Made by a program: the position numbers and the translations under genes. A stretch of DNA of 64,000 nucleotides from Plicaturopsis crispa FD-325 SS-3 (lineage: Eukaryota; Basidiomycota; Agaricomycetes; Amylocorticiales; Amylocorticiaceae), in the NCBI GenBank assembly GCA_000827205.1, contig KN832569.1, positions 384,647 to 448,646 of the forward strand, given 5' to 3'. Below the pieces are notes generated by a model. It made no database searches and was not told where the DNA came from. It saw nothing but the letters and a program-made list of their open reading frames with translations. Positions 3,584 to 60,399 of the stretch are shown one piece after another; positions within the stretch are counted from its first letter, which is position 1, and each line of letters opens with the position of its first letter.

Positions 3584-5093
3584 ATGGCTGAAGGGTCCGT
3601 GTACACTCTTCCACAACCGCGTTCGCCGTGTCAGTCCCCAATACGATGTCGAGTGTGCGCCTACCTCACGAGCGACTTATGTCCAAATATCGACAAGGTT
3701 GGGCCATTGCACGTTCTCACGTACTCACGCGCTGACTCTTTTGTTGGCAGGATCATATTCATCCGATAGATATATACCGTCTTTGGGACATGGTGACTAC
3801 TCTTAAGGAAGCTAACCACCGGACGACTCTGTGGCGAATGGTCGAACCTCTTATCTCGTCCAAAGGCTATACCTTGGATCCTTCGACACTTCCGGAAGAG
3901 GATGCGCTGGTTGCTTCAGGCGGAGGAGTTAACTTAGAACCTGCTCATGTGGTGAGTAGTCGACTCGCAGATTCCGTGCTACTCGATATATAACAGGCAA
4001 AATGTACCGTCCAACAGTTCAGCGCACTGTCACGGCCCGCGGTCTCAAACAGGAGCGGCCGAGCGGTGTTCATAAGTCACTGTCTGCATGCCGCCCTAGC
4101 AACCCAGAATATCCAATCCGGTATAGTATGTGCTCGAAAACAGCTATGCAGGACCAACGGAACCATACCATACCTGTGCGGGCCGTACTCTGGTATACGC
4201 CCGACTTTACACCGCACGGATACCCTACTGTCCCTGGAGACGCGCGCGCCTTTGTTGTAACGAAGAAGTACGCCGCCATGACTGTGAATTCCTGGGGCAT
4301 TGATGTCAACGTGGTGCCGCCCGATGTGCGTTCAACTCTTGAAATGATCAAGCAATTCTTCGAGGTCTGAGGTCCAATTCGACTTGGCCGATTCTATCAC
4401 TTACTGAGATGCATCCCCAAGGGCCTTGAATACATGCACTCGCGAGGTATAACACACGGAGTATGTGTTTGCTTCTCTAGAATGATCTAGTTCTGACGTT
4501 GATAATTCAGGATCTTGGGCAGCATAATATGGTCCTTTCCAAGACGTCCTCGGGCAGGTTGCGATACCTATTCATTGACTTCGAGCTTGCCTCGTCCCAC
4601 CCTTTGCCTCTCGTGAAGCCTGTCCAACACCTCGCATTCAGGCGTGTCAACAACGCTGGTCCAGAGTATTCGATGGCGGCCCCTTACGACCCCTTCGCAA
4701 ATGACATCTTCGCACCCGGTATGTTCGTGGAGGATGTTCTCCGGGTCAACGGTTATGTCTATCACAAGGTTCGTACCACGTTCTTGCGCCGTGTATTCGT
4801 CGCTAAGGGCGACGGAAAGGCATGGGACAATGTACCTTAGATCGCCGAGCTCGCGAAACGGATGCAAGAGCATGATCCCGAACAACGCCCTACGGCTGTC
4901 CAGGTTTGCCGTGAATTCAAGAAATTGCGAAAAACTCTCTCGGAAGACGTTATGCGTATGCCCATTGAAAGTGAGTGTGGGCTCTCATTCACTGGTTTTC
5001 CCGCGATGCCCATATTCTCTGGTAGGCAGTACGGGGAAGAGTCGTTACGGACAGGCGCCGTCATTTGCAGAAACTGTTGCAAGCTTGCAATGA
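3584..5093 (+). pseudogene. PKL kinase-like gene copy 1, broken
   Basis: This is a paralogue of the copies at 5416 and 13886, with the same exon order. It opens MAEGSVYTLPQPRSPCQSPI, followed by IYRLWDMVTTLKEANHRTTL, a middle exon with ALWYTPDFTPHG-like text (here VLWYTPDFTPHGY), a short exon GLEYMHSRGITHG and the catalytic exon DLGQHNMVLSK with LFIDFELASSH. Compared with the two intact copies there are two lesions: one base is missing around 4070-4074, shifting the frame between GRAVF and KSLSACRPS, and a TAG at 4838-4840 stands where the intact copies have CGC (Arg). The last exon still ends in frame (FAETVASLQ, stop 5091-5093). Divergence is modest, so inactivation looks fairly recent. A sequencing error could explain one lesion but hardly both. 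Confidence 0.7.
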
Positions 5094-5415: not shown

Positions 5416-6927
5416 ATGGTGGAGGGATCTGTGTACGTTCTTCCGCAACCCCAGCCGCCGTGTCAGTACCCGATAAGCTGTACAGTGTGCCAATACCTCA
5501 CGAGCGACAGGAGTCCCACCGCTGACAAGGTAAGTTTGCAAACCCTATCCACATATCTCACTACCTACTCCCCCGATGGCAGACACGGATAAATCTGATA
5601 GATGTCTACCGTCTTTGGGACATGGTGACAACCGTCCCAGAAGCCAACCATCGAACGATGCTGTGGCGGATGGTTGAGCCCTTTATTGCATCTAAAGGCT
5701 ACACTATGGATCCCTCAGCCCTTCCGGACGGTGATCCACTCGTCGTGATAAACGGGAGTGTTAGGTGGAATCATGCTCATACGGTGAGTGTGCCACCTAC
5801 AGATGTCGCGCGTGTACTTGATAGTGCTCAACCGACCTAATAGCTCAGTGCTTTATCGCGGCCTGCAATTTCGAATAAGAGTGGCCGAGCAGTCTTCATC
5901 AAGTCACTAAACACATGCCATCCCAGCGCGCAAGAGTTCCCGATCTGGCAAAGCATGTGCTCTCCAGCCGCGATGCAAGACCGGCGGAACCACACCGCGC
6001 CCATGAGACGCGTCCTCTGGTATACGCCCGATTTCACGCCCCATGGATACGTTTCTGTACCCCAAGACACGCGCGCTTTCGTCGTGACGAAGAAATACGC
6101 CAGCATGATGGTAACTATAAACGGCATTGGGGTCATCGTGGTGCCGCCCGACGTATGTTCATGCTTTGACTTGATACAGCAGTTCTTTGAGGTTTGACAT
6201 ATATTTCAATCGGTTTTCATCTCGCTTTACTGACACACGCTTGCAGGGTCTTGAATTCATGCACTCTAGCGGTATCACACACGGGGTATGTAGATGGTTT
6301 CTTGTAGATCTCCGGGCAAACCTTGATATTTTAATCTTTAGGACCTTGGACAGCACAATATTGTCCTCTCCAGGACCTCGTCTGGGGAACTTCGCTATCT
6401 ATTCATTGATTTCGAGCTGTCCTCCTCCCACCCTGTGCCCTTTGACGAGCCCGTTCGGCATCACGCATTCCGAAGAATTACTAATGCTGGGCCCGAGCAT
6501 TCGATGGTGACACCCTACGACCCGTTCCCCAATGATATCTATGCAGCAGGTCTTTTTGTGGAAACTCTTCTTCGCGCAAACGGCTATACTTACCGCAAGG
6601 TTCGTAATATAATCCTCGTTTCTCTGGCGCGGCTGATGGCTACATATGGAAGGAATGGCAAAAGATACCCCGCATGGCGGAACAGGTGAAATGGATGCGG
6701 GAGGAAGATCCCAGACGACGTCCCACCGCCGCCCAGGTCCACTCTGAGATCTGTGTTCTGCAACAAACCCTCCCTCAGGACGTCATGAGAATACCTATCC
6801 GAAGTAATGCCGGCCTTTCTTGGATTTGGTCATACGAGACTGACAATTTCTTTTAGGCAGCACAGAAAAAGACGCCCTGGTAGGACGTGTACCGTCGTTT
6901 GTTGACGCTGTTGCCAGCCTGCACTGA
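5416..6927 (+). CDS. PKL-type protein kinase-like gene, copy 2
   Basis: This belongs to the protein-kinase-like (PKL) proteins that are expanded in Agaricomycetes; substrates are unknown. The exons read MVEGSVYVLPQPQPPCQYPI, then LIDVYRLWDMVTTVPEANHR, then LSALSRPAISN through VVPPDVCSCFDLIQQFFE, then GLEFMHSSGITHG, then DLGQHNIVLSRTSSGELRY with LFIDFEL, then EWQKIPRMAEQVKWM, and finally SSTEKDALVGRVPSFVDAVA with stop at 6925-6927. HGDLGQHN fits the HxDxxxxN catalytic loop and FIDFE takes the place of DFG, so Mg binding by the Asp is plausible, although no glycine-rich loop is evident. The start was chosen because M-SVY-LP-P-PPCQ is shared by all three copies. All six introns keep the frame. 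The duplication with its neighbours is tandem and head to tail. The protein could be a pseudokinase. Confidence 0.75.
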
Positions 6928-13885: not shown

Positions 13886-15398
13886 ATGGCCCAGCAATCG
13901 GTGTACAGTCTTCCGCCACCGCAACCGCCATGTCAGTCCCCGATACGCTGCGCGGTGTGCCGCTACCTCACAAGCAATGCAAGTCCGACACTCGACAAAG
14001 TACTTAAATCTTTCAGACATAATCCGTCTACCTTATCTGTTAACATTCAATGACAGACCCGCATACACCCGATAGATGTTTATCGTCTTTGGGACATGGT
14101 AACCACCAATCCAGAAGCCAACCACCGAACAATGTTGTGGCGGATGGTCCAACCTTTCATAGTTTCTAAAGGTTACACTCTAGAGCCTTCAGCACTTCCG
14201 GACGAAGACCCGGTCATTGTTGAAAACGGATGGGTTAGGACTCGACTCGCTCATATGGTAAGCTTCGCATCCGACAATCTCGTCCAAAATCAACGTGCTG
14301 AAACAACTTAATAGCTCAGTGCTTTGTCGCGACCCGCTATTTCGAACAGGACTGGCCGAGTGGTATATATCAAGTCATTGAATACGTCCCATCCTGCTGC
14401 GCAAGAGTTCCCAGTATGGTATAGCTTGTGCTCGCGGACAGCGATGCAAGACCAGCGGAACCACACCGTACCTATGAGGCGTATCCTCTGGTACACGCCC
14501 GATTTCTCTCCCCACGGATACACCCCTCTCCCTGACGATACACGCGCGTTGGTCGTGACAAAAAAGTACGCAACCATGGCTGTGAGTATAGACTGCCTCA
14601 ATTTCATCGTGGTGCCACCCGACGTGCGCTCGTGTCTTGATTTGATCGAGCAGTTCTTTGAGGTTTGAAATTCACTCCGATTGGTTTCTAATCCAGGCTT
14701 ACTGACATACATACGCAGGGCCTTGAATTCATGCATTCCAGTGGTGTAGCGCACGGGGTATGTGGGTAATCTCTCATAGATCGCAGGGCAGGTTCTGATA
14801 TTCCAGGCACCAGGACCTTGGGCAGCATAATATCGTCCTCTCCAAGACCTCCAACGGAAGACTGCGTTATCTCTTTATCGATTTCGAGCTATCCTCTTAT
14901 CACCCTCTACCCCTTGTCAAGCCCATTCAGCATCGTGCATTCCGGGGAGTTAGCAATGCTGGTCCAGAGCATTCGACAGTAACTCCGTACGACCCATTCC
15001 CAAATGACATTTACGCCGCGGGTCTCTTCGTGCATTATGTGCTTCGGGCCAACGGTTACTTTCCCCACAAGGTTCGTGATGTATCCCCGGTGTTTTTCTT
15101 TCCGGATTGCTCATGATTAAGGAAGGCTTGGGACAACATACCCCGCATGGCGGAACTGGTGGAATGGATGCGGCAGGAAGATCCCGAACGACGACCCACT
15201 GCCTCACAAGTCCACCGCGAGATCACCGTACTGCAGGAAAGTCTCCCGGAACATGTTATGAGGATACCTATCCAGAGTAATTGAAGTCTTTTTCTGGAGC
15301 AAGTTACACGAGGCTCACAACTCCTCCTAGGCAGCACAGACCGGGTCTCTGCGGAGGAAGTGCCGTCATTTGCTCAGACTGTTGCCAGCTTGAGCTGA
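13886..15398 (+). CDS. PKL-type protein kinase-like gene, copy 3
   Basis: This copy is intact and shares the exon structure of the 5416 copy. It opens MAQQSVYSLPPPQPPCQSPI, then IDVYRLWDMVTTNPEANHRT, LSALSRPAISNRTGRVVYIK, ILWYTPDFSPHGYTPLP, GLEFMHSSGVAHG, DLGQHNIVLSKTSNGRLRY with LFIDFELSSYH, AWDNIPRMAELVEWMRQED, and ends SFAQTVASLS at 15396-15398. HGDLGQHN provides the catalytic Asp and Asn, and FIDFE sits at the DFG position. The protein has about 400 residues. Compared with copies 1 and 2 it is displaced by about 7 kb, with an unrelated minus-strand gene and a gene-poor stretch between. All introns keep frame with GT starts, and acceptors include AAG as well as CAG and TAG. The biochemical role is unknown. 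Confidence 0.75.
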
Positions 15399-26050: not shown

Positions 26051-27835
26051 TCACCACTTGCCCGCCGGAGCCGTGTAGAGGTATCCACGGTACCTGTCAC
26101 ACAGTCGCTCCTTCGCCACGCCGGCATCCACGCTCTTCTCATTCACCATTTCCGAATGCTGGCTCTTCTCCCCCTGGTCTTCAGTCACCCGAGCCCGAGG
26201 AGCCAGCCCGCCAAGTAGGGTCCAGCGCTTACTCTGCCGGGGCGCATCCTTCGGCGCACGGAGCAGCCTTCTGGGCTTGCGCATGGGAGCTGCACCCGCA
26301 AAGTGGCCTGGCCCATAAACGCGATCGCGTTCCAGTTTTTCGCGCGCGAGATAGTAGATAGATATCAGGGGATGGAATCCATGCTTCGGATCTGGAGGGC
26401 CGTCTACGAGTGTGGTCTGCGATGGATTAGAGGACTGTGACGGTGACCCAGGCGGCGACGTATTGGGCGAGAAGAATGTCCGACGATAAAAGTCGAAGCC
26501 AGAAAAGCGGCGCGACTCCTTGGGCGTGAATGATGCCTGGGACTTGGTGACAGTCGATTGGAGAAGGTCGTGGTGGTGGATGGAGTGGTTATAGGCGTCC
26601 GACTCCAGGACCGCCACCAGGCGTCGCTCGATCTCGTCTACCGTTCCGAACTCAAAACCCTGCATCCCCCGAATGACAGCGCGATCGAGCTCGTCAACGC
26701 GAAGCGGCTCACGGTGGACTAGGTGAGGGTCTGGTGGTCCGTGAAATCCGCGCGTCATCCATTGGTGCGACATGACCTCCGAGAGCGTCACGCGGGCCTG
26801 CGGGTTTGTCACGAGCATGCGGGAGAGTAGGTGTTTGCACTCTGGAGGCATTTTAGTTAGTTAGTTAGTTACAATCACGATGCGATGGCCAAACTACGCA
26901 CCTGCACTGAGCCGCGCCGGGTACTCGACATGCCCACGCTTGATCTTGGCATGGAGGGCGGGTACACTCTCGTCGTCAAACGGGACCTTTCCACAGACGA
27001 GCACGTACAGCACAACGCCAAAGTTCCAAACGTCTACTTCAGGTCCAATGTAGATCTTGGCATCGAGGAGCTCCGGGGCGGGGAAATATGTCCCGCCGCA
27101 AAACGTCGCGAGGTGGCCAAGAGGGTCGAAGACATTGGAAAGCCCAAAATCGATGATTTTGACATCGCCAGTCTGCGTAACGAGGATGTTCTCCAGCCTG
27201 AGGTCCCGGTGTACGATGTTGTTCTTGTGGCAATACTCGAGCGCGCTCCCGATCTGCCGCGCAAACTTGCGCGCCACGCGCTCCCGCAGTCGCCCGTGGC
27301 TGATAATATAGTCGAGCATGTGCCCGCCGTTGACGTACTCGAACACCATGTGGTAGTGGTGCGGGTGCACGATCATCTCGCGCATGCCGCAGATGTGCGG
27401 GTGGTGGAGCAGCATCGACAGGGCCGCCTCCCGCAGCGTGCGCGTCTCATTCAACGATGCCTGCTTTGCGACTTGCTCGGGCGTGGCGCCGCTCGTGCTC
27501 ACTCTGTGTGGAGGGCTACGCGGCAGGATTTTGACCGCTACCTGGGGGCGATGTCAACAAGAGACAGACGAGAGCGACGAGCGCCGCACCTTTTCACCTG
27601 TCACATTGTGTGTCGCGAGCTTGACCTTGCCCATGCTACCTACGCCGAGCGTCTTGCTCAGGGTATAGTTGCCGAGGATATGGCTCGTGGTGCGCGGTTT
27701 GGACGCATCCCTGTGGGTTTCCGTATCGTCAGGGACATTCTGAGTGGATGGCGAAGGGGGCATCGACGCTGGGCGTGGCCTGGTATCTTGCTGGCGTGTG
27801 GGGAGAGAATGGGGAATGCAGGGAAGTGGATGCAC
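26051..27835 (-). CDS. Truncated paralogue of the KIN1 kinase, without KA1 domain
   Basis: This is a shortened inverted copy of the gene at 56594. Exon 1 opens [20 protein letters not shown] and holds the glycine-rich loop [15 protein letters not shown]. Exon 2 opens VAVKILPR (ATP lysine), continues [26 protein letters not shown] and [12 protein letters not shown]. Exon 3 opens [20 protein letters not shown]. Introns sit at the same places as in the parent, so it is a DNA-level duplicate, not a retrocopy. The catalytic HRDLK has become HRDLR and the APE region FAAPELL is FPAPELL. Relative to the parent exon 3 carries three internal deletions; the last fuses kinase-tail sequence to the KA1 exon in a wrong frame (ends [11 protein letters not shown]), so KA1 is lost. 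About 555 residues against about 1200. It may be expressed as a regulatory fragment or be decaying. Confidence 0.7.
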
Positions 27836-51796: not shown

Positions 51797-53947
51797 TCAA
51801 GCAGGCCGACGGGCCCCCACCGCCCGCAGATCCACGACCTTTCTCTGCCCGTTCATGTCCGCAGCACCAAACAGCGTCGGACTGCGCGCGCCACCCACGT
51901 CGCGGCCACTCCAGCTGCGTTCAACGATATCATCCACCTTCCTCAGCGCCCCCATGCGCGCCGTGTAGCGCTCCGCCGGCGTACCACGCGAATTGATAGA
52001 CGGCTGTGCGCTGACGGGCTGGACGGACTTTCTCGCCTGCGCCTTGGCACTCGATGATCCCGTCGCCCGCGCAAAGCTAGGCTCGCCCGACGCTGGAGTC
52101 CGCGTCGAAGGGCTTCCGCGGCGGGGAGGCGAAAGAGGCGACCCCTTCACATCTGCTGCTTTTGCATAGTGGGGGCGGTGCTGCGGCGGACTTTTCGCAG
52201 CTGCTGGGTATGGCAACGCTGGCGGTGGCTTCGAGGTCTTCAACTTCGTCGCGGAGCGCTTGGCACTGGTAGGCTGCTTCTTCGGATCCGGGCTTGCAAC
52301 CATGCTCGGGACTGAGCCTTGGGGAATGGTAGGCGTAAAAAAGAGCTTTGACTCTAGCGGGGGAGAAGTGATGCGCGGGGGGCTGCATGGGAGTGCCGCC
52401 ACGTATGATGGCGTATATGCCAGTTTGTTCGGGTACCGGTTGGCGGATGCACGCGGCTGTGGGCTTGGCGAGACGGGGCAGCGAGACGGGGGTGAGTAGG
52501 GGCGTTCCGGTGACCTCGACCTCGCTCTCCGCACCGGCAGCGGCGTGAACTTGTCCTCTTCAACCTCGTCCGCTCCATACGATTTCCATCCGATGTACTT
52601 TTCCTTAGAAGGGCTTCCCCAGAAACTCGAGCGATCAAGGCTCGGCAGTTGGCTCGGGTCCTCTGAGACCATGCGGAATCCACTCCCTGCGATCCATGCG
52701 GTGCTGGTGTTCTCCTTGCCAGCGCCCATGCGCGACGCCGGACGCGACGAGCTCGTGCGATCCGAGTGGCTACGCTCCGGTTTCCTGAGGTCGTCCGCGC
52801 ACAAGAATTGGCTTTCTTCTCCGTCCGCGTCCAGATCTACTGTCTTCAGATCATCTGCGTAACCGCCATCAAGACCTGGCATGGCGGCATACCGTGCACC
52901 CCCACCGGCACCGGCGCCCTGCAGCCGCTCGAGTATCCCCCGCCGAATGGATTTGTGCCGGAGACTCTCGTACGGCGTGCGCGCTCCGTCGTCGAGCTCC
53001 GTGCCATACATCGACAGCGCATCTGTCCTGCCACTGGCCTTTGTCCGCGTGGACACCCCGCGAGAGGGCGCCAGTGCCGAGCGGGGAGGGACCAAGAACG
53101 GATCCTCATCCTCAGCGGGCGCCGCGGGCCACGCAAAAGGGCTCTTACCGCGCGCTTTCTTGATAGAGCCCGTTGCAGTCGATAGCGCGCGGGAGAGCCA
53201 CAGGCTGCCGCCACCACCAGAGCCGGAATATGGCGCGCCGTGGGTTGAGTATTTGCTAGGGCTCCTGCCGACGTCCCCGTAGCCTTCAGTGAGCCCAGTC
53301 TTCTCGTCGGGGCCGACGAAAGCGAATGCGTCGCGGATGGTAGGGGGCTTGTACGGTGGACCGGGTTCCAGGATGTCTCCGCGATCCCTCGCACGACGCG
53401 AGGACAAGCAGCAGCAGCATGAGAATGCGGAGCGTGTGGTGACGGCGTAGAGGATGCAGACGGCGACGATACCCACCGTAATGCCTAGCAAGGAGAAGAG
53501 CGGGATTAGGAATACGAGTTTTATGGGGACGGGGCGCGCGAGCTTGCCGGTGCGGGTATATCCTGAAAAAGTGGCGGCGGGGGGTATGGCGGTCAGCTTA
53601 ATGAGAGACCGAGAGGCGGATGACGAGGCAGAGGATGACTGCGATGCGGATTGGGTCGGCGTCGCAGCGGGTCCAGATGAAGCCGGTCCAGAGACGGGCA
53701 TAGTGGCAGGTGAGGAAGCGGAGATAGATGCCGGGGGATTGCCACCTGGAGGGCCCCAATTGACGCTAGAAGTGAAAGGCGGCGCTGCTGCTGGTGGTGG
53801 TGGTTGGGGAGGCGCGGCAGGTGGGCCAGACGGCGCCGCCTGTCGGTCGTAGTACACATTATAGCGTGTCCGTGTAGTGGGTGTTGTTGTATTCACAGCT
53901 TGGCTGACTACGCTGGCCGCAAGGCCAACGAGTATGACCGCGCGCAT
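51797..53947 (-). CDS. Single-pass membrane protein with mucin-like ectodomain and long cytosolic tail
   Basis: One 716-codon exon. Residues 1-17 (MRAVILVGLAASVVSQAVNT) form a signal peptide. A short ectodomain follows, rich in P, S, T and A (PPQPPPPAAAPPFTSS; TPTQSASQSSSASSSAS), probably O-glycosylated. The TM segment IKLVFLIPLFSLLGITVGIV, continuing AVCILYAV, lies near residues 141-170, followed by a palmitoylation-type cysteine run AFSCCCCLSSRRARDRG. The remaining ~530 residues are cytosolic, basic and proline-rich, with many SP sites (SPSPQPRASANRYP; PLSPPRRGSPSTRT), and end with TARMGALRKVDDIVERSWSG, probably conserved. The layout resembles a cell-wall sensor-like protein but I do not recognise the family. 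The ATG directly follows the stop codon of the upstream gene in the same frame. Confidence 0.7.
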   Translation of the reverse strand: MRAVILVGLAASVVSQAVNTTTPTTRTRYNVYYDRQAAPSGPPAAPPQPPPPAAAPPFTSSVNWGPPGGNPPASISASSPATMPVSGPASSGPAATPTQSASQSSSASSSASRSLIKLTAIPPAATFSGYTRTGKLARPVPIKLVFLIPLFSLLGITVGIVAVCILYAVTTRSAFSCCCCLSSRRARDRGDILEPGPPYKPPTIRDAFAFVGPDEKTGLTEGYGDVGRSPSKYSTHGAPYSGSGGGGSLWLSRALSTATGSIKKARGKSPFAWPAAPAEDEDPFLVPPRSALAPSRGVSTRTKASGRTDALSMYGTELDDGARTPYESLRHKSIRRGILERLQGAGAGGGARYAAMPGLDGGYADDLKTVDLDADGEESQFLCADDLRKPERSHSDRTSSSRPASRMGAGKENTSTAWIAGSGFRMVSEDPSQLPSLDRSSFWGSPSKEKYIGWKSYGADEVEEDKFTPLPVRRARSRSPERPYSPPSRCPVSPSPQPRASANRYPNKLAYTPSYVAALPCSPPRITSPPLESKLFFTPTIPQGSVPSMVASPDPKKQPTSAKRSATKLKTSKPPPALPYPAAAKSPPQHRPHYAKAADVKGSPLSPPRRGSPSTRTPASGEPSFARATGSSSAKAQARKSVQPVSAQPSINSRGTPAERYTARMGALRKVDDIVERSWSGRDVGGARSPTLFGAADMNGQRKVVDLRAVGARRPA

Positions 53948-54634
53948 TTACTCCTCGCCTGCGCTAGGTAGGCAGATGACTTTGACGCGTGATTCCACGC
54001 ACAGCGCACTTAGATCGGACTGCGGGCGGTCGAGAGAGAGGCCGGCGGCTACGAAGGCCGACCGACGTATAACGTGAGAGGACGGAGAGTAGGCCGCTCC
54101 GGTGACTCCGCTACGGCGCGTTTTGCGCCAGAAAGTCGTGGGACGGACTGGGCACCGTTAGGGCTAGATCAATTTCTCACAAGAAGGCGACTCACAGACT
54201 GGTGGAGGCGGACGCGCGGGTTCGCCGGTTCGACTTGCAGCAAACGAGGTGGTCCTCCGTCTGTTGAATTTCGCGCGAGGAGGGGGACTGACCAGAAGAG
54301 ATGTATCGCTCTTACTAGCGAGATCGCTGATAGGATTGTCGTTGTACGGAGGTGCAGAAGATGGGCGCGGCGGTGGCTGGACGCGAGTCGCCTTGTAAGT
54401 GTTCCTCGGCGGCGACAAAAGTCCTGGGTCCCTTCTACGAACAGACGGTGATGCTGACGAGAGATCAGGAGGAGAATCCGGTGCTGACTCGAGTGTGACC
54501 ATGACTGGATGGCTGACATCGATATTCAAGTTTGGACTGCTACGACGACTGGCGAAGCTCAGGCTCAACGGCGACCGTGGCCGTGGTGGGGTATATAGCG
54601 GCGATGGCGAAACTAGAACGGTCAAATCAGACAT
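53948..54634 (-). CDS. Unknown short protein whose stop abuts the next gene's ATG
   Basis: The start MSDLTVLVSPSPLYTPPRPR begins a Ser/Pro-rich part (PDSPPDLSSASPSVRRRDPG; YNDNPISDLASKSDTSLLVS; RRRTTSFAASRTGEPARPPP). One intron with donor gtgagtcgcc and acceptor gtgcccag (about 54147-54194) keeps the frame and joins to FRPTTFWRKTRRSGVTGAAY, SPSSHVIRRSAFVAAGLSLD, RPQSDLSALCVESRVKVICL and PSAGEE. The last ~60 residues look like a folded conserved core. About 210 residues; no signal peptide or TM. The stop TAA is at 53948-53950 and the ATG of the membrane protein is at 53945-53947, with zero bases between and the same frame. Function unknown; the arrangement suggests co-transcription with the membrane protein. 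Confidence 0.65.
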
Positions 54635-55018
54635 TTAGTAGCGATAAACGAGCGACGATAGTTGAGGGCTAAAATGGCTGCAGCAGACTGAGAAATACGA
54701 GCACAAGGAGCGCTCGAGAGGGAAATTGGAAATATAAGAGTGCCCGAAGCGAGGACGTATAAGCGTTTTCGGGCAAATAGCCCCTGTGACCGTTCTGCGG
54801 CGTGGCGACACCGAGTCTGCCAGCTTGCTTCACTCGTTTACCATCCGTCTATACCCCAACTCTACATCGCGCCTATAACAAGTTGTCTGGACCTTCCTCA
54901 CCTGTGCACCCGAAATTGAAGCTAGGATTTGGTCTTCCGACGTATTGGAAATACTGCTTCTGAACGTCCAGCGGTCACGTCGCGAACACTACTCTAGAGT
55001 CTAGACACATTGGTGAAA
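54635..55018. other. Divergent promoter region
   Basis: This separates the minus-strand pair from SPC1 (+). No gene or repeat seen. Confidence 0.45.
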
Positions 55019-55474
55019 ATGGACCTCAGCTTTGTCCATGAAGCACTCGAGGGCAAAATTGTACGTCCTCTTACTCTTCTATATCCAGTGCTTGCCTCAC
55101 ACTATCCAGGACTTCGAGGGCCAGCAGCTTGTTGACCAAATAGCCCGCAATGGGCTCATCGGTATCACCGTGCGTGCTATGTGTTGCAATCACCCCTACT
55201 CCGTGCCGAACAAAGTATTATACGCGTAGGCAACCTCGTTTCTGACCGGTTTCGCACTGCAATCGCTCAGAGTCGCTTTTGGCGTGCTGGGGCTGGGATT
55301 CGTCGTGATTTTGGTAGTAAGTGCACCATCCAATAACCAGCGGTAAAGACTTCTCAACGTAGTTTGTTGAACTTTGTCCCTTAGGCCGTCGTACCCCCGT
55401 GGTCGATATATAACAGCTCTCCTGTGCAATGGCTGCCGGCGATACCAACAGAGGAGAAGAAGAAGACCAAGTGA
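55019..55474 (+). CDS. SPC1: Signal peptidase complex subunit 1
   Basis: A small non-catalytic subunit of the ER signal peptidase, which helps define which membrane segments are cleaved. Four exons, each too short to stand out alone: MDLSFVHEALEGKI; DFEGQQLVDQIARNGLIGIT; ATSFLTGFALQSLRVAFGVL with GLGFVVILV; and AVVPPWSIYNSSPVQWLPAI, ending PTEEKKKTK. Introns run from gtacgtcc to tatccag, gtgcgtgc to acgcgtag and gtaagtgc to cccttag; all keep the frame. DFEGQ, two hydrophobic spans forming a hairpin, and VVPPWP-like VVPPWS with QWLP are the family pattern. About 90 residues, the usual length. TGA at 55472-55474. The lysine-rich C-terminus faces the cytosol, as in relatives. Confidence 0.88.
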
Positions 55475-56593: not shown

Positions 56594-59500
56594 ATGTCGA
56601 CATATCCGACTTCGTTAGCGGGCCAACAACCCGAGGGAGCGACGACGCCGAGCCATGGGGGAACGGTGCGCGCAGGCCACGAATTCGATATCCCCATCTT
56701 TCAGCCCGTACACCCACCTTCTCCACACAGAACTGGTACATCGACTCCGCCTGCGTCCCCCCATCCTCTCCCCGCACCCCGCCAGCAAAATTCCAGGCCA
56801 CGCCCAGCGTCGATGCCCCCGGCGCCATCCGCTCAGAATGTCCCCGACGACGCAAAACCACGCAGGGATCCGTCCAAACCGCGCAGCACAAATCGCATCC
56901 TCGGCGATTATACCCTGAGCAAGACGCTCGGCGCAGGTAGCATGGGCAAGGTCAAGCTGGCGACGCACAATGTGACCGGTGAAAAGGTGCGCCGGTCGTC
57001 GCTCTCGCTTGTGCCTCGCTGACACCGCCCCCAGCTGGCGGTCAAAATCTTACCGCGCACACCCCCAAACACCGCGAACACGAATGGCGCCACGCCCGAG
57101 CAGGTCGCGAAGCAGGCGTCAAAGGATGCGTCGAAGGAGACGCGCACGCTGCGGGAGGCGGCGCTGTCGATGCTGCTCCACCACCCGTATATTTGCGGCA
57201 TGCGCGAGATGATTGTGCACCAGCACCACTACTACATGGTTTTCGAGTACGTCAACGGAGGACAGATGCTCGACTATATCATCAGCCACGGGCGACTGCG
57301 GGAGCGCGTCGCGCGCAAGTTCGCGCGGCAGATCGGGAGCGCGCTCGAGTACTGCCACAAGAACAACATCGTGCACCGGGACCTCAAGATCGAGAACATC
57401 CTCATTTCACAGACAGGCAACATCAAGATCATCGATTTTGGGCTTTCCAATCTCTTCGATCCAGTTGGCCACCTCGCGACGTTCTGCGGCTCGTTATATT
57501 TCGCCGCCCCAGAGCTCCTCAACGCCAAGGTTTACACAGGGCCCGAAGTCGACGTCTGGAGTTTTGGCGTCGTCTTGTACGTGCTCGTCTGTGGCAAGGT
57601 CCCGTTCGACGACCAGAGCATGCCGGCCTTACACGCCAAGATAAAGCGTGGGCTCGTTGAGTACCCGGTGTGGCTCAGTGCAGGTGCGTGCTCTGTCCTT
57701 CTCATTTTGAATGCCACTAAATTGCCTCTAGAGTGCAAACATCTACTCTCTCGCATGCTCGTGACGAACCCGCAAGCCCGTGCGACGCTTTCAGAGGTCA
57801 TGTCGCACCAATGGATGACGCGCGGATTTCACGGACCACCCGACCCGCACCTAGTCCACCGTGAGCCGCTTCGCGTTGATGAACTCGACCGCGCCGTCAT
57901 CCGGGGGATGCAGGGCTTCGAGTTCGGAACCGTGGACGAGATCGAGCGGCGCCTGATAGCAGTCCTCGAGTCCGACGCCTATATCCGCGCCGTCCAGCAC
58001 CACGACCGCTTGCATCGCAACAGCTCTGCGCGGTTCGGCTCAGAGACAGGATTCTCCAATTCGAGCCTCGCCATTTCCTTCGACGCGGCGTCGCGTAGCC
58101 ATTCGAGCCTTACCAAGTCGGAGGCACCTCTCACGCCCAAGAAGTCGCGCCGCTTTTCTGGGTTCGACTTCTATCGTCGGAAACTGTTCTCGCCCAATAC
58201 GTCGCCGCCTGGGTCACCGTCACAATCCACTCACCCGTCGCAGTCCACGCTCACAGACAACCCCCCAGATCCGACGCGTGGATTCCATCCCCTCATATCT
58301 ATCTACTATCTCGCGCGCGAAAAATTGGAGCGCGAACGCGTTTATGGGCCAGGCCATTTCGCGAGCTCGCAGCTGTCTATTCAGTCCGCCGCAATACCCC
58401 AAGCACCTCCTACCGCCTCGGCAGCGGCAACAGCAGTCGCTGGCCAGGAGCAGCAGACTCCTGCCCTAGCTCCCAGGAAAGACCCGCCCGCTTCGGCGCG
58501 TGGTAAGGCGGACTATAGCATGCCGCTCCCGCGCCTTCCCCAGCCGGCCACCTCGCATTACTCCGGGATGTCGTACGATGGGACTACGGCACCTGCGACA
58601 CCGTCACCGACTTCTGCGGGCTTCCACCCGCAGCCCCGCGCGCGGGATGCAGGGGACAGCATCAGCGTGCCGAAGCGATCCGACACGCAGGGCCCCTCCA
58701 GTGCGCCCGGCAGTGCGGGCCTCCCGCGCGCGCCGCCTGCCTCTACGCACCGCCGCAGCCACAGTCTCAGCCAGCGCCCGACGGTGCTGCGCGGCTGGAA
58801 CATGTTCGGCGGCGCCGAGGCACCCGTTGACGAGAATGGCGTGCTCAGCTCGCCGCGCTCTGCGGATCCTACTATGGCTGTGTTCCCCGAACGGCCGGAG
58901 GAGGAACTCCACGAGCCGCAAACGGCGCCGCTCCCCATGTCCACGGGCGCGACTCTCGTGCGCAGGTTCGGAAGCCTGCTCGGCGCGCCGAAGGATGAGT
59001 CCCGGCGGAGTAAGCGCGGGACCATACTGGGAGGGCTGTCTCCACGGGTGTCTGAAGATCAAGGGGAGAAGAGCCAGCATTCGGAGAAGGAGAACGAGAA
59101 GGTTAGGGAGAGCGTGGATGTCAACAGCGAGACGAAGGAGCGGCCGTCGGAGAGCCCGGCGACGGTGCCTGGGGCGAAGCAGCACGAGCTCCCGCTTGGG
59201 AGCGTGCAGCGGCGGGCGGCGACGATCCTCGATCCGCAGAGTCGCGCGGCTAGGCACGAGCGAAGGAGCAGCACAGGCGCGGCATTGCTCGGTTCGGCAG
59301 GTGGGGGTACTATCGGACGACACAGAAGACCATCTACTGGATATGGGGCAACGAGGCCATTGACAGAGAGGCTGTTCCGGCGCGCGGATCAACTGGAAGA
59401 GGAGACCACGGTCGAGGGTGAAGACCCTACCCAAAATGGAGTCAACGGACACGAGCAGACACCAGAAGAAGACTTCCGGGAAGAGGATGAACGGCATACA

Positions 59501-60399
59501 ACGGAAAAAGACTTCAAACCAGTCTTTTTGAAGGGCTTGTTCAGGTGAGTTATCCTTATCGTTCCTCAGGATCTAGCAATCTGAATCTCGTGCAGTGTGG
59601 CGACAACCTCGACGAAGAGCCCTCCGGCCATCAAGGCGGACATAAAGCGTGTTCTTGACCGGATGCAAGTACAGTATCGCGAAACGCGCGGTGGCTTCGA
59701 GTGCATCCACCTGCCGTCCATCGACCTCTCCTCCGTGCACGAGTCCGTGACACCTTCCGCCACATTCTCATCGAGACATACGGGCCACCGGAAACAGAAC
59801 TCTGGAGGCTCGAATGACGCCGTTTCGACTCGCAAATCGATCGTCAAGAAAGCTTCGAAATTGTCGTTCGGAGTGAGGCGTGAACGCGAGTCCTCCGGCG
59901 ACAAGGAGAAAGAAAAGGACAAGGATCTGCCGAACCGACCGTCGACGCTCACAGCGACACCCAGCAGTGGCTCGTCGTCTTTCTTCAATGTCTCGTCCAA
60001 CGCTCATACTGTCCTCGCGGACAATCGGTCGAATGGCCAGATGAGCACCAATTCTCCTGTCGAAGAGCATCCTCCGCGATCTGTGTCTCCGGCCAAATCT
60101 AAGATCCTCCCGCCTATACCACGCGATTTTGCGGCGAGTCCCGCCCCAATGGCTCCGATGCCAACGGGGGAAGTGGACCGGGAGGTTTTCGAGACCATGG
60201 GCGCCAACACGCTTTCTGTGCGGTTCGAAATCAACATTGTAAAAGTGAGAGGCTCGTTGTCCTGTTTGTAGACGTGCACTGACGTTCTATCCAGGTACCA
60301 TGGCTACCTCTGCACGGGATACAGTTCCGGCGGGCAAGTGGCGACGGATGGCAATACCAAATGCTGGCGCGACGGGTCCTCACGGAACTGAAGCTATGA
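56594..60399 (+). CDS. KIN1: KIN1/PAR-1 family serine/threonine kinase with KA1 domain
   Basis: A cell-polarity and exocytosis kinase acting at the plasma membrane. The start [20 protein letters not shown] leads to a Pro-rich N-terminus, then [20 protein letters not shown] (glycine loop), LAVKILPR (ATP lysine about residue 135), [28 protein letters not shown] (about 245-252), [11 protein letters not shown] (Asp about 265), [20 protein letters not shown] and [20 protein letters not shown]. The UBA-like/linker region has [20 protein letters not shown]. After ~700 residues of disordered linker, [20 protein letters not shown] precedes VRFEINIVK, which splices (donor gtgagagg, acceptor tatccag) to [34 protein letters not shown]: the KA1 domain, which binds acidic lipids and restrains the kinase. 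About 1200 residues, as for fungal Kin1. Parent of the truncated copy at 26051-27835. Confidence 0.92.

Follow-up and report, generated by a model that had tools for sequence, protein, structure and literature searches.

Tandem genes that share a transcript have been described from mushrooms. Gordon et al. (2015; PMC4503453) reported polycistronic RNAs in four Agaricomycetes, comprising up to 8% of transcribed genes, with a mean inter-ORF distance of 364 nt in P. crispa. According to the same source, the U-rich and A-rich termination elements are missing from the upstream ORFs of these RNAs, and independent transcription of the genes occurs as well. For Ganoderma lingzhi 1272 polycistronic loci with a mean distance of 434 bp have been described (PMC11590231). 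How fungal polycistronic RNAs are translated was left open in the account of Gordon et al. In the experiments described by Sun et al. (2025; PMC11952965) the second cistron of a test operon stayed untranslated in unselected yeast, whereas an activated strain translated it even at the junction UAAAUG, through 80S reinitiation. The 9-nt IGG1/IGG6 linker was reported by Yue et al. (2023; PMC10352335) to allow reinitiation, and their linker-free controls with a stop are described as yielding no second protein; use of this linker in maize was described by Chen et al. (2024; PMC11677970). Bicistrons of green algae attributed to leaky scanning are reported to have a weaker start context at ORF 1 and a stronger one at ORF 2 (PMC11892635). 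In eukaryotes, ribosomes are said to reinitiate behind a long ORF only exceptionally (PMC5972666).

The window analysed here is a stretch of 64,000 nt (positions 384647-448646 of contig C16) from a 33.2-Mb genome assembly of 49 contigs. On its minus strand two open frames, hereafter gene A and gene B, abut. The junction reads ...GGCGAGGAG TAA ATG CGCGCG..., with the TAA at 53950-53948 and the ATG at 53947-53945 in the same frame, which confirms both the zero spacing claimed by an earlier sequence-only reading and its position. The letters at the junction are certain; the gene structure around it is what we infer. Gene A is predicted to consist of exon 1 (54634-54196, minus strand, 439 nt, start ATG at 54634-54632), an intron of 48 nt (54195-54148, minus, GTGAGT...CTAAC...CAG) and exon 2 (54147-53948, minus, 200 nt, ending with the TAA at 53950-53948). 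It thus encodes 212 aa, in line with the roughly 210 residues that the earlier reading had given. Gene B (53947-51797, minus) encodes 716 aa in a single exon without intron, its start codon (53945-53947) lying directly after A's TAA.

The locus resembles the Agaricomycete polycistronic units in that putative same-strand neighbour genes lie in an intron-rich fungal nuclear genome, the stretch after the first being T-poor, though it holds an A-rich decamer. It differs in its gap, which is 0 against the means of 364 nt and 434 bp. The stop-AUG junction is identical to that of the constructs described for activated yeast; those were engineered and became active only after selection, whereas A and B form a natural pair in another fungus, read here, as in the comparison with the mushroom units, from its DNA. 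With the IGG1/IGG6 operon the pair shares the prospect of fungal reinitiation across a very short intergenic stretch, but the 9-nt linker described as required there has no counterpart at A/B. As in the green-alga bicistrons the two ORFs are very close and few AUGs precede ORF 2; unlike in those, the order of start contexts is reversed and the AUG depletion is not significant. Gordon et al. guarded against misannotated single ORFs by looking for stops in all frames between the ORFs, and between A and B there is a single in-frame TAA only. We assign the pair to none of the named classes, since it is known from sequence alone, the check on stops in all frames has no room at zero gap, and the TURBS and leaky-scanning features looked for are not found.

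Because there is no spacer, B can be made only by a restart at the stop, by ribosomes skipping A's starts, from a transcript that begins inside A, or from a spliced fusion. Long-read, 5'-end and reporter data would tell these routes apart, and a natural pair joined at UAAAUG lends itself directly to testing the translation question left open by Gordon et al. Should merely overlapping transcription be at work, the locus shows how tightly fungal genes can pack.

Spacing was evaluated with our own gene finder, which allowed any spacing and covered the window together with 200 kb of contig C1, in all 264 kb of the 33.2 Mb. The predicted introns were short (median 56 nt), consistent with a basidiomycete. 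Five runs gave 50-64 tandem pairs each; the median gaps lay at 501-688 nt and no pair apart from A/B had a gap of 0, so that zero spacing is an outlier among tandem gaps. The junction is real and unusually tight. Run 1 (order 4) gave 62 pairs with a median of 688 nt; A/B, with another end for A, was the closest at 101 nt and the next followed at 207 nt. At order 2 with low gene cost there were 64 pairs (median 501 nt), with A/B at a gap of 0 and a further three under 50 nt (9, 15 and 16 nt), the gaps of 9 and 15 lying between ORFs of 50-103 aa; with high cost there were 53 pairs (median 511 nt) and none below 50 nt. Order 3 gave 62 pairs, a median of 511 nt and three gaps below 50 nt (9, 15 and 27) at low cost, and 50 pairs, again with a median of 511 nt and none below 50 nt, at high cost. 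A further predicted tandem pair (206 and 471 aa) at about 1179376-1179393 of contig C1 (G000:C1) had a gap of 16 nt in one run and of 254 nt in another.

These runs are equivocal on the locus itself. Two complete, close ORFs on one strand with zero gap are present in the sequence, yet only one of the five runs returned them as such; three fused them by a 48-nt intron and one ended A 101 nt before B. This split is the strongest result against a reading as two genes with zero gap.

The hexamer alone is unremarkable, given that 344 sites with a stop followed directly by ATG occur on both strands of the 264 kb. At five of the 344 such a site has at least 60 open codons before and at least 100 after it, one of the five being the start of gene A, and only the A/B junction leads into a signal peptide of its score. 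The TAAATG at A's own start (54632-54637, minus) is preceded by at least 60 open codons that do not score as coding, a sign that the hexamer with open frames can arise by chance. Nor is there anything special in the genome-wide frequency of GAGGAGTAAATG, which occurs 4 times in the 33.2 Mb against 5 times for the reversed pattern. A literature word match of TAAATG with stop codon, start codon and fungal returned nothing, which does not imply absence from print, as PMC11952965 spells the motif UAAAUG.

Gene B is clearly coding in its own frame, with scores of +25.4 for its first 300 nt and +129.4 for the rest under a model that had B in its training set. The translation begins with a predicted signal peptide (MRAVILVGLAASVVSQA, the first 17 residues, 53897-53947, minus), followed by a Ser/Thr/Pro-rich stretch, a single transmembrane helix predicted by eye from the translation (residues 144-169, 53441-53518, minus), CCCC with basic residues and a long Ser/Pro-rich tail. 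We take this order to be that of a fungal type I surface protein. On a crude scale of our own the signal peptide scores 3.45, a value matched or surpassed at 4 of the 3637 ATGs in the 264 kb that are followed by 30 or more open codons (B's own among the 4) and at one of 105 other predicted gene starts. The signal peptide claimed to follow the stop is real-looking and begins exactly at B's ATG. Searches for B found no Pfam family and no second copy in the genome, which does not make B an orphan.

The reading that we prefer, tentatively and at just short of an even chance, is that A and B are two separate genes set stop to start whose RNAs overlap, that of A running into B while B also has a start inside A. 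The pair looks like an unusually tight form of the tandem arrangement already known in mushrooms. If A ends at 53950, with nothing in between, any 3' UTR of A must be inside B and any 5' UTR of B inside A, so the RNAs would overlap. We propose that A's message may run into, and probably through, B to the T-rich 3' end of the latter, giving a bicistronic read-through RNA, and that B protein would come mostly from a shorter RNA with its start within A, in the manner described for co-transcribed tandem genes of Agaricomycetes. By scoring, T content over the 300 nt that follow A's stop ranks at the 2nd percentile among 102 genes and that after B's stop at the 83rd, a comparison confounded by the coding sequence that follows A. 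An A-rich decamer within 300 nt of A's stop is at the 94th percentile of the same genes; a poly(A) site inside B is thereby possible, which counts against read-through to B's end.

A private promoter for B finds little in its favour upstream. In GC content the 200-nt stretch preceding B stands first, or shares first place, among the upstream stretches of 102 genes. Its upstream-likeness is so low that no more than 7 of 100 such stretches fall to the same level, and the TATA[AT] box that 37 of 100 have was not found in front of B. All three argue against a promoter belonging to B itself, an effect due in part to coding constraint. The earlier assertion that zero spacing leaves no room for a separate promoter and leader is nevertheless too strong, since both can lie inside A and the genes of Gordon et al. 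are reported as independently transcribed too. Its statement that bicistronic transcripts are known from Agaricomycetes is in print (PMC4503453, PMC11590231). Taken as a whole, the sequence-only reading keeps its zero-spaced same-strand frames, its signal peptide and its published class, and loses its exclusion of a promoter and its fused product; for the upstream protein, whose core it called conserved-looking, searches of Pfam, IMG/VR, PDB, the GTDB genomes and this genome returned no relative or second copy.

Doubtful, and the first alternative to be weighed, is a strict bicistronic unit, with one mRNA from A's promoter, an 80S-type restart at UAAAUG as the sole route to B and the level of B coupled to that of A. 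Stop-start reinitiation is typified by a stop codon no more than a few nt away from the downstream AUG, and the pair has this geometry as UAAAUG, the same arrangement that selected yeast translates in the work of Sun et al. (PMC11952965), and the 80S-mediated reinitiation described there drops with the length of a spacer that is zero here. The lack of promoter-like sequence before B points the same way. So does B's start context (-1.28), which ranks at the 2.9th percentile when B and 101 other predicted genes are compared, among the weakest, which initiation by scanning would disfavour. Against a strict unit stand the unselected yeast of PMC11952965, in which cistron 2 of the test operon is described as untranslated, and the linker-free yeast constructs with a stop, reported as giving no downstream protein (PMC10352335). 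In addition, the 212 codons of A are long for reinitiation as characterized in PMC5972666, and UGGGA, motif 1 of TURBS, does not occur within 120 nt before A's stop. We hold it slightly less likely still that this is a natural fungal nuclear pair that uses a UAAAUG restart after a 212-codon ORF to tie the synthesis of a secretory-pathway membrane protein to that of another protein, with no intergenic sequence and no private promoter.

Leaky scanning past A does not fit as the route to B, as the start context of A (0.97, 56th percentile) is stronger than that of B and Met45 (54502) has G at both -3 and +4. A contains three ATGs including its start. The absence of ATG from its last 504 coding nt was dropped as evidence, being mostly driven by the protein (P 0.19-0.26, from synonymous shuffles and resampling).

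Improbable, and somewhat more so than the strict unit, is that A ends elsewhere, either unspliced at the TAG at 54166-54164 or, by another splice, at the TAG at 54051-54049, which would leave B with a private leader of about 100-220 nt. Exon 1 is common ground, being clearly coding in its own frame only. A model whose training set included a version of A gave +14.7 for this frame against -20.5 and -17.0 for the others; when A was excluded from training, the frame had +6.4 to +12.5 at Markov orders 1-4 and a codon score of +10.5. By scoring, the intron of A stands at the 79th percentile of 473 predicted introns and is intron-like rather than coding-like in its frame (LLR -8.1). Exon 2 is short and GC-rich, and order 4 barely separates two of its frames (-2.1, -0.5 and -12.3). 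A codon model without A gives it 7.1 in A's frame, a value that 46% of 416 coding segments do not exceed and that 0.4% of 3000 non-coding segments reach. The next frame scores 5.5 but contains stops, and a margin as small as this one of 1.6 is found in 15% of true coding segments.

The three-exon version of A was chosen by the first self-trained run, ending at 54049 and leaving a 101-nt gap (20.4 against 16.6), but the order-4 model behind that run had its own version of A in the training set. With A omitted the codon model and orders 1-3 prefer two exons: orders 1, 2 and 3 give 13.2, 18.4 and 17.4 for two exons against 10.6, 13.0 and 15.4 for three, and the codon model 20.2 against 12.9, while order 4 still puts the other end slightly ahead, by 1.0 nat (12.5 against 11.5). 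The three-exon form also depends on a weak intron (14th percentile) that would interrupt a stretch which is open and mildly coding-like. An unspliced A has a codon score of 8.8 and ignores a canonical intron. The two-exon form beats both of these alternatives under Markov orders 1-3. Among 229 structures enumerated with A's start fixed, up to two introns and no intron across the junction into B, the best and indeed the top nine all end at the TAA at 53950 (codon model, A left out). It is likely, not proven, that A ends there, the case for exon 2 resting on its intron and codon use and not on homology. Its peptide had no relative in IMG/VR, PDB or the GTDB genomes, which does not imply orphan status; AF2 on the peptide alone gave a mean pLDDT of 53.3, a low confidence that is uninformative for a query with no relatives. 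Similar peptides may exist in basidiomycetes. The whole A protein had no Pfam match, and no second copy turned up in the 33.2-Mb genome.

Two genes stop to start are to be set, finally, against a single gene in which an intron of 48 nt (53951-53904, minus, GTAAAT...GTCAG) removes the TAA, the ATG and most of the signal peptide to give an A-B fusion of 913 aa, either constitutively or as an isoform. The earlier reading had not considered this, and we regard it as quite improbable. It was nonetheless picked in three of the four low-order runs (order 2 at high cost and order 3 at both costs), and in our own scoring fusion and two genes come out about level (-7.9 against -7.3, the latter mostly set by an arbitrary gene cost). 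The length of the intron is divisible by 3, keeping the frame, and a GTAA donor in this phase gives an in-frame TAA by itself. As an intron, however, it is weak and atypical. Set against 520 predicted introns, which come from our own predictor and are selected for such features so that the fractions are biased, its donor GTAAAT is found in one only, and it lacks both the YTNAY branch site that 449 possess and the G at donor position 5 that 467 possess, both being missing in 10. Its GC content of 0.604 is equalled in 2.5% of the introns, and only 2.6% are as coding-like (+1.78, against -8.1 for A's intron by a like measure). A fusion would furthermore make a near-perfect signal peptide an accident of an intron and leave the Ser/Thr/Pro-rich segment of B, apparently outward, with no targeting signal. 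It is for the loss of this signal peptide inside the intron that two genes are preferred, which is an argument and not a test.

That an assembly or base error, or a decaying gene, created the junction is very unlikely, both frames being open and coding-like by codon use right up to it. Read-through of the UAA to give an A-B fusion protein, as the sequence-only reading had suggested, is hardly credible: the frames are continuous across the stop, but UAA followed by A is not known as a leaky stop context and the signal peptide of B would be buried inside the product.

Gene A is separated by 384 nt (54635-55018) from a divergent neighbour (55019-55474, plus strand) that matches the SPC12/Spc1 signal peptidase subunit (Pfam PF06645, E 2e-24); B, the second gene from this signal peptidase subunit past A, is itself a predicted signal-peptide protein. 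Elsewhere in the window two protein-kinase genes in opposite orientation (26051-27763, minus, and 56594-60399, plus) have a common N-terminal motif, QNVPDD...SKPR; the kinase match on the minus strand (about 26756-27466) contains two internal stops, which may reflect an intron or a decayed duplicate. Three predicted genes on the plus strand (4146-4840, 5973-6856 and 14444-15398) have the common N-terminus MQD[QR]RNHT...LWYTPDF[TS]PHG, with another predicted gene lying between the second and third members of this local family.
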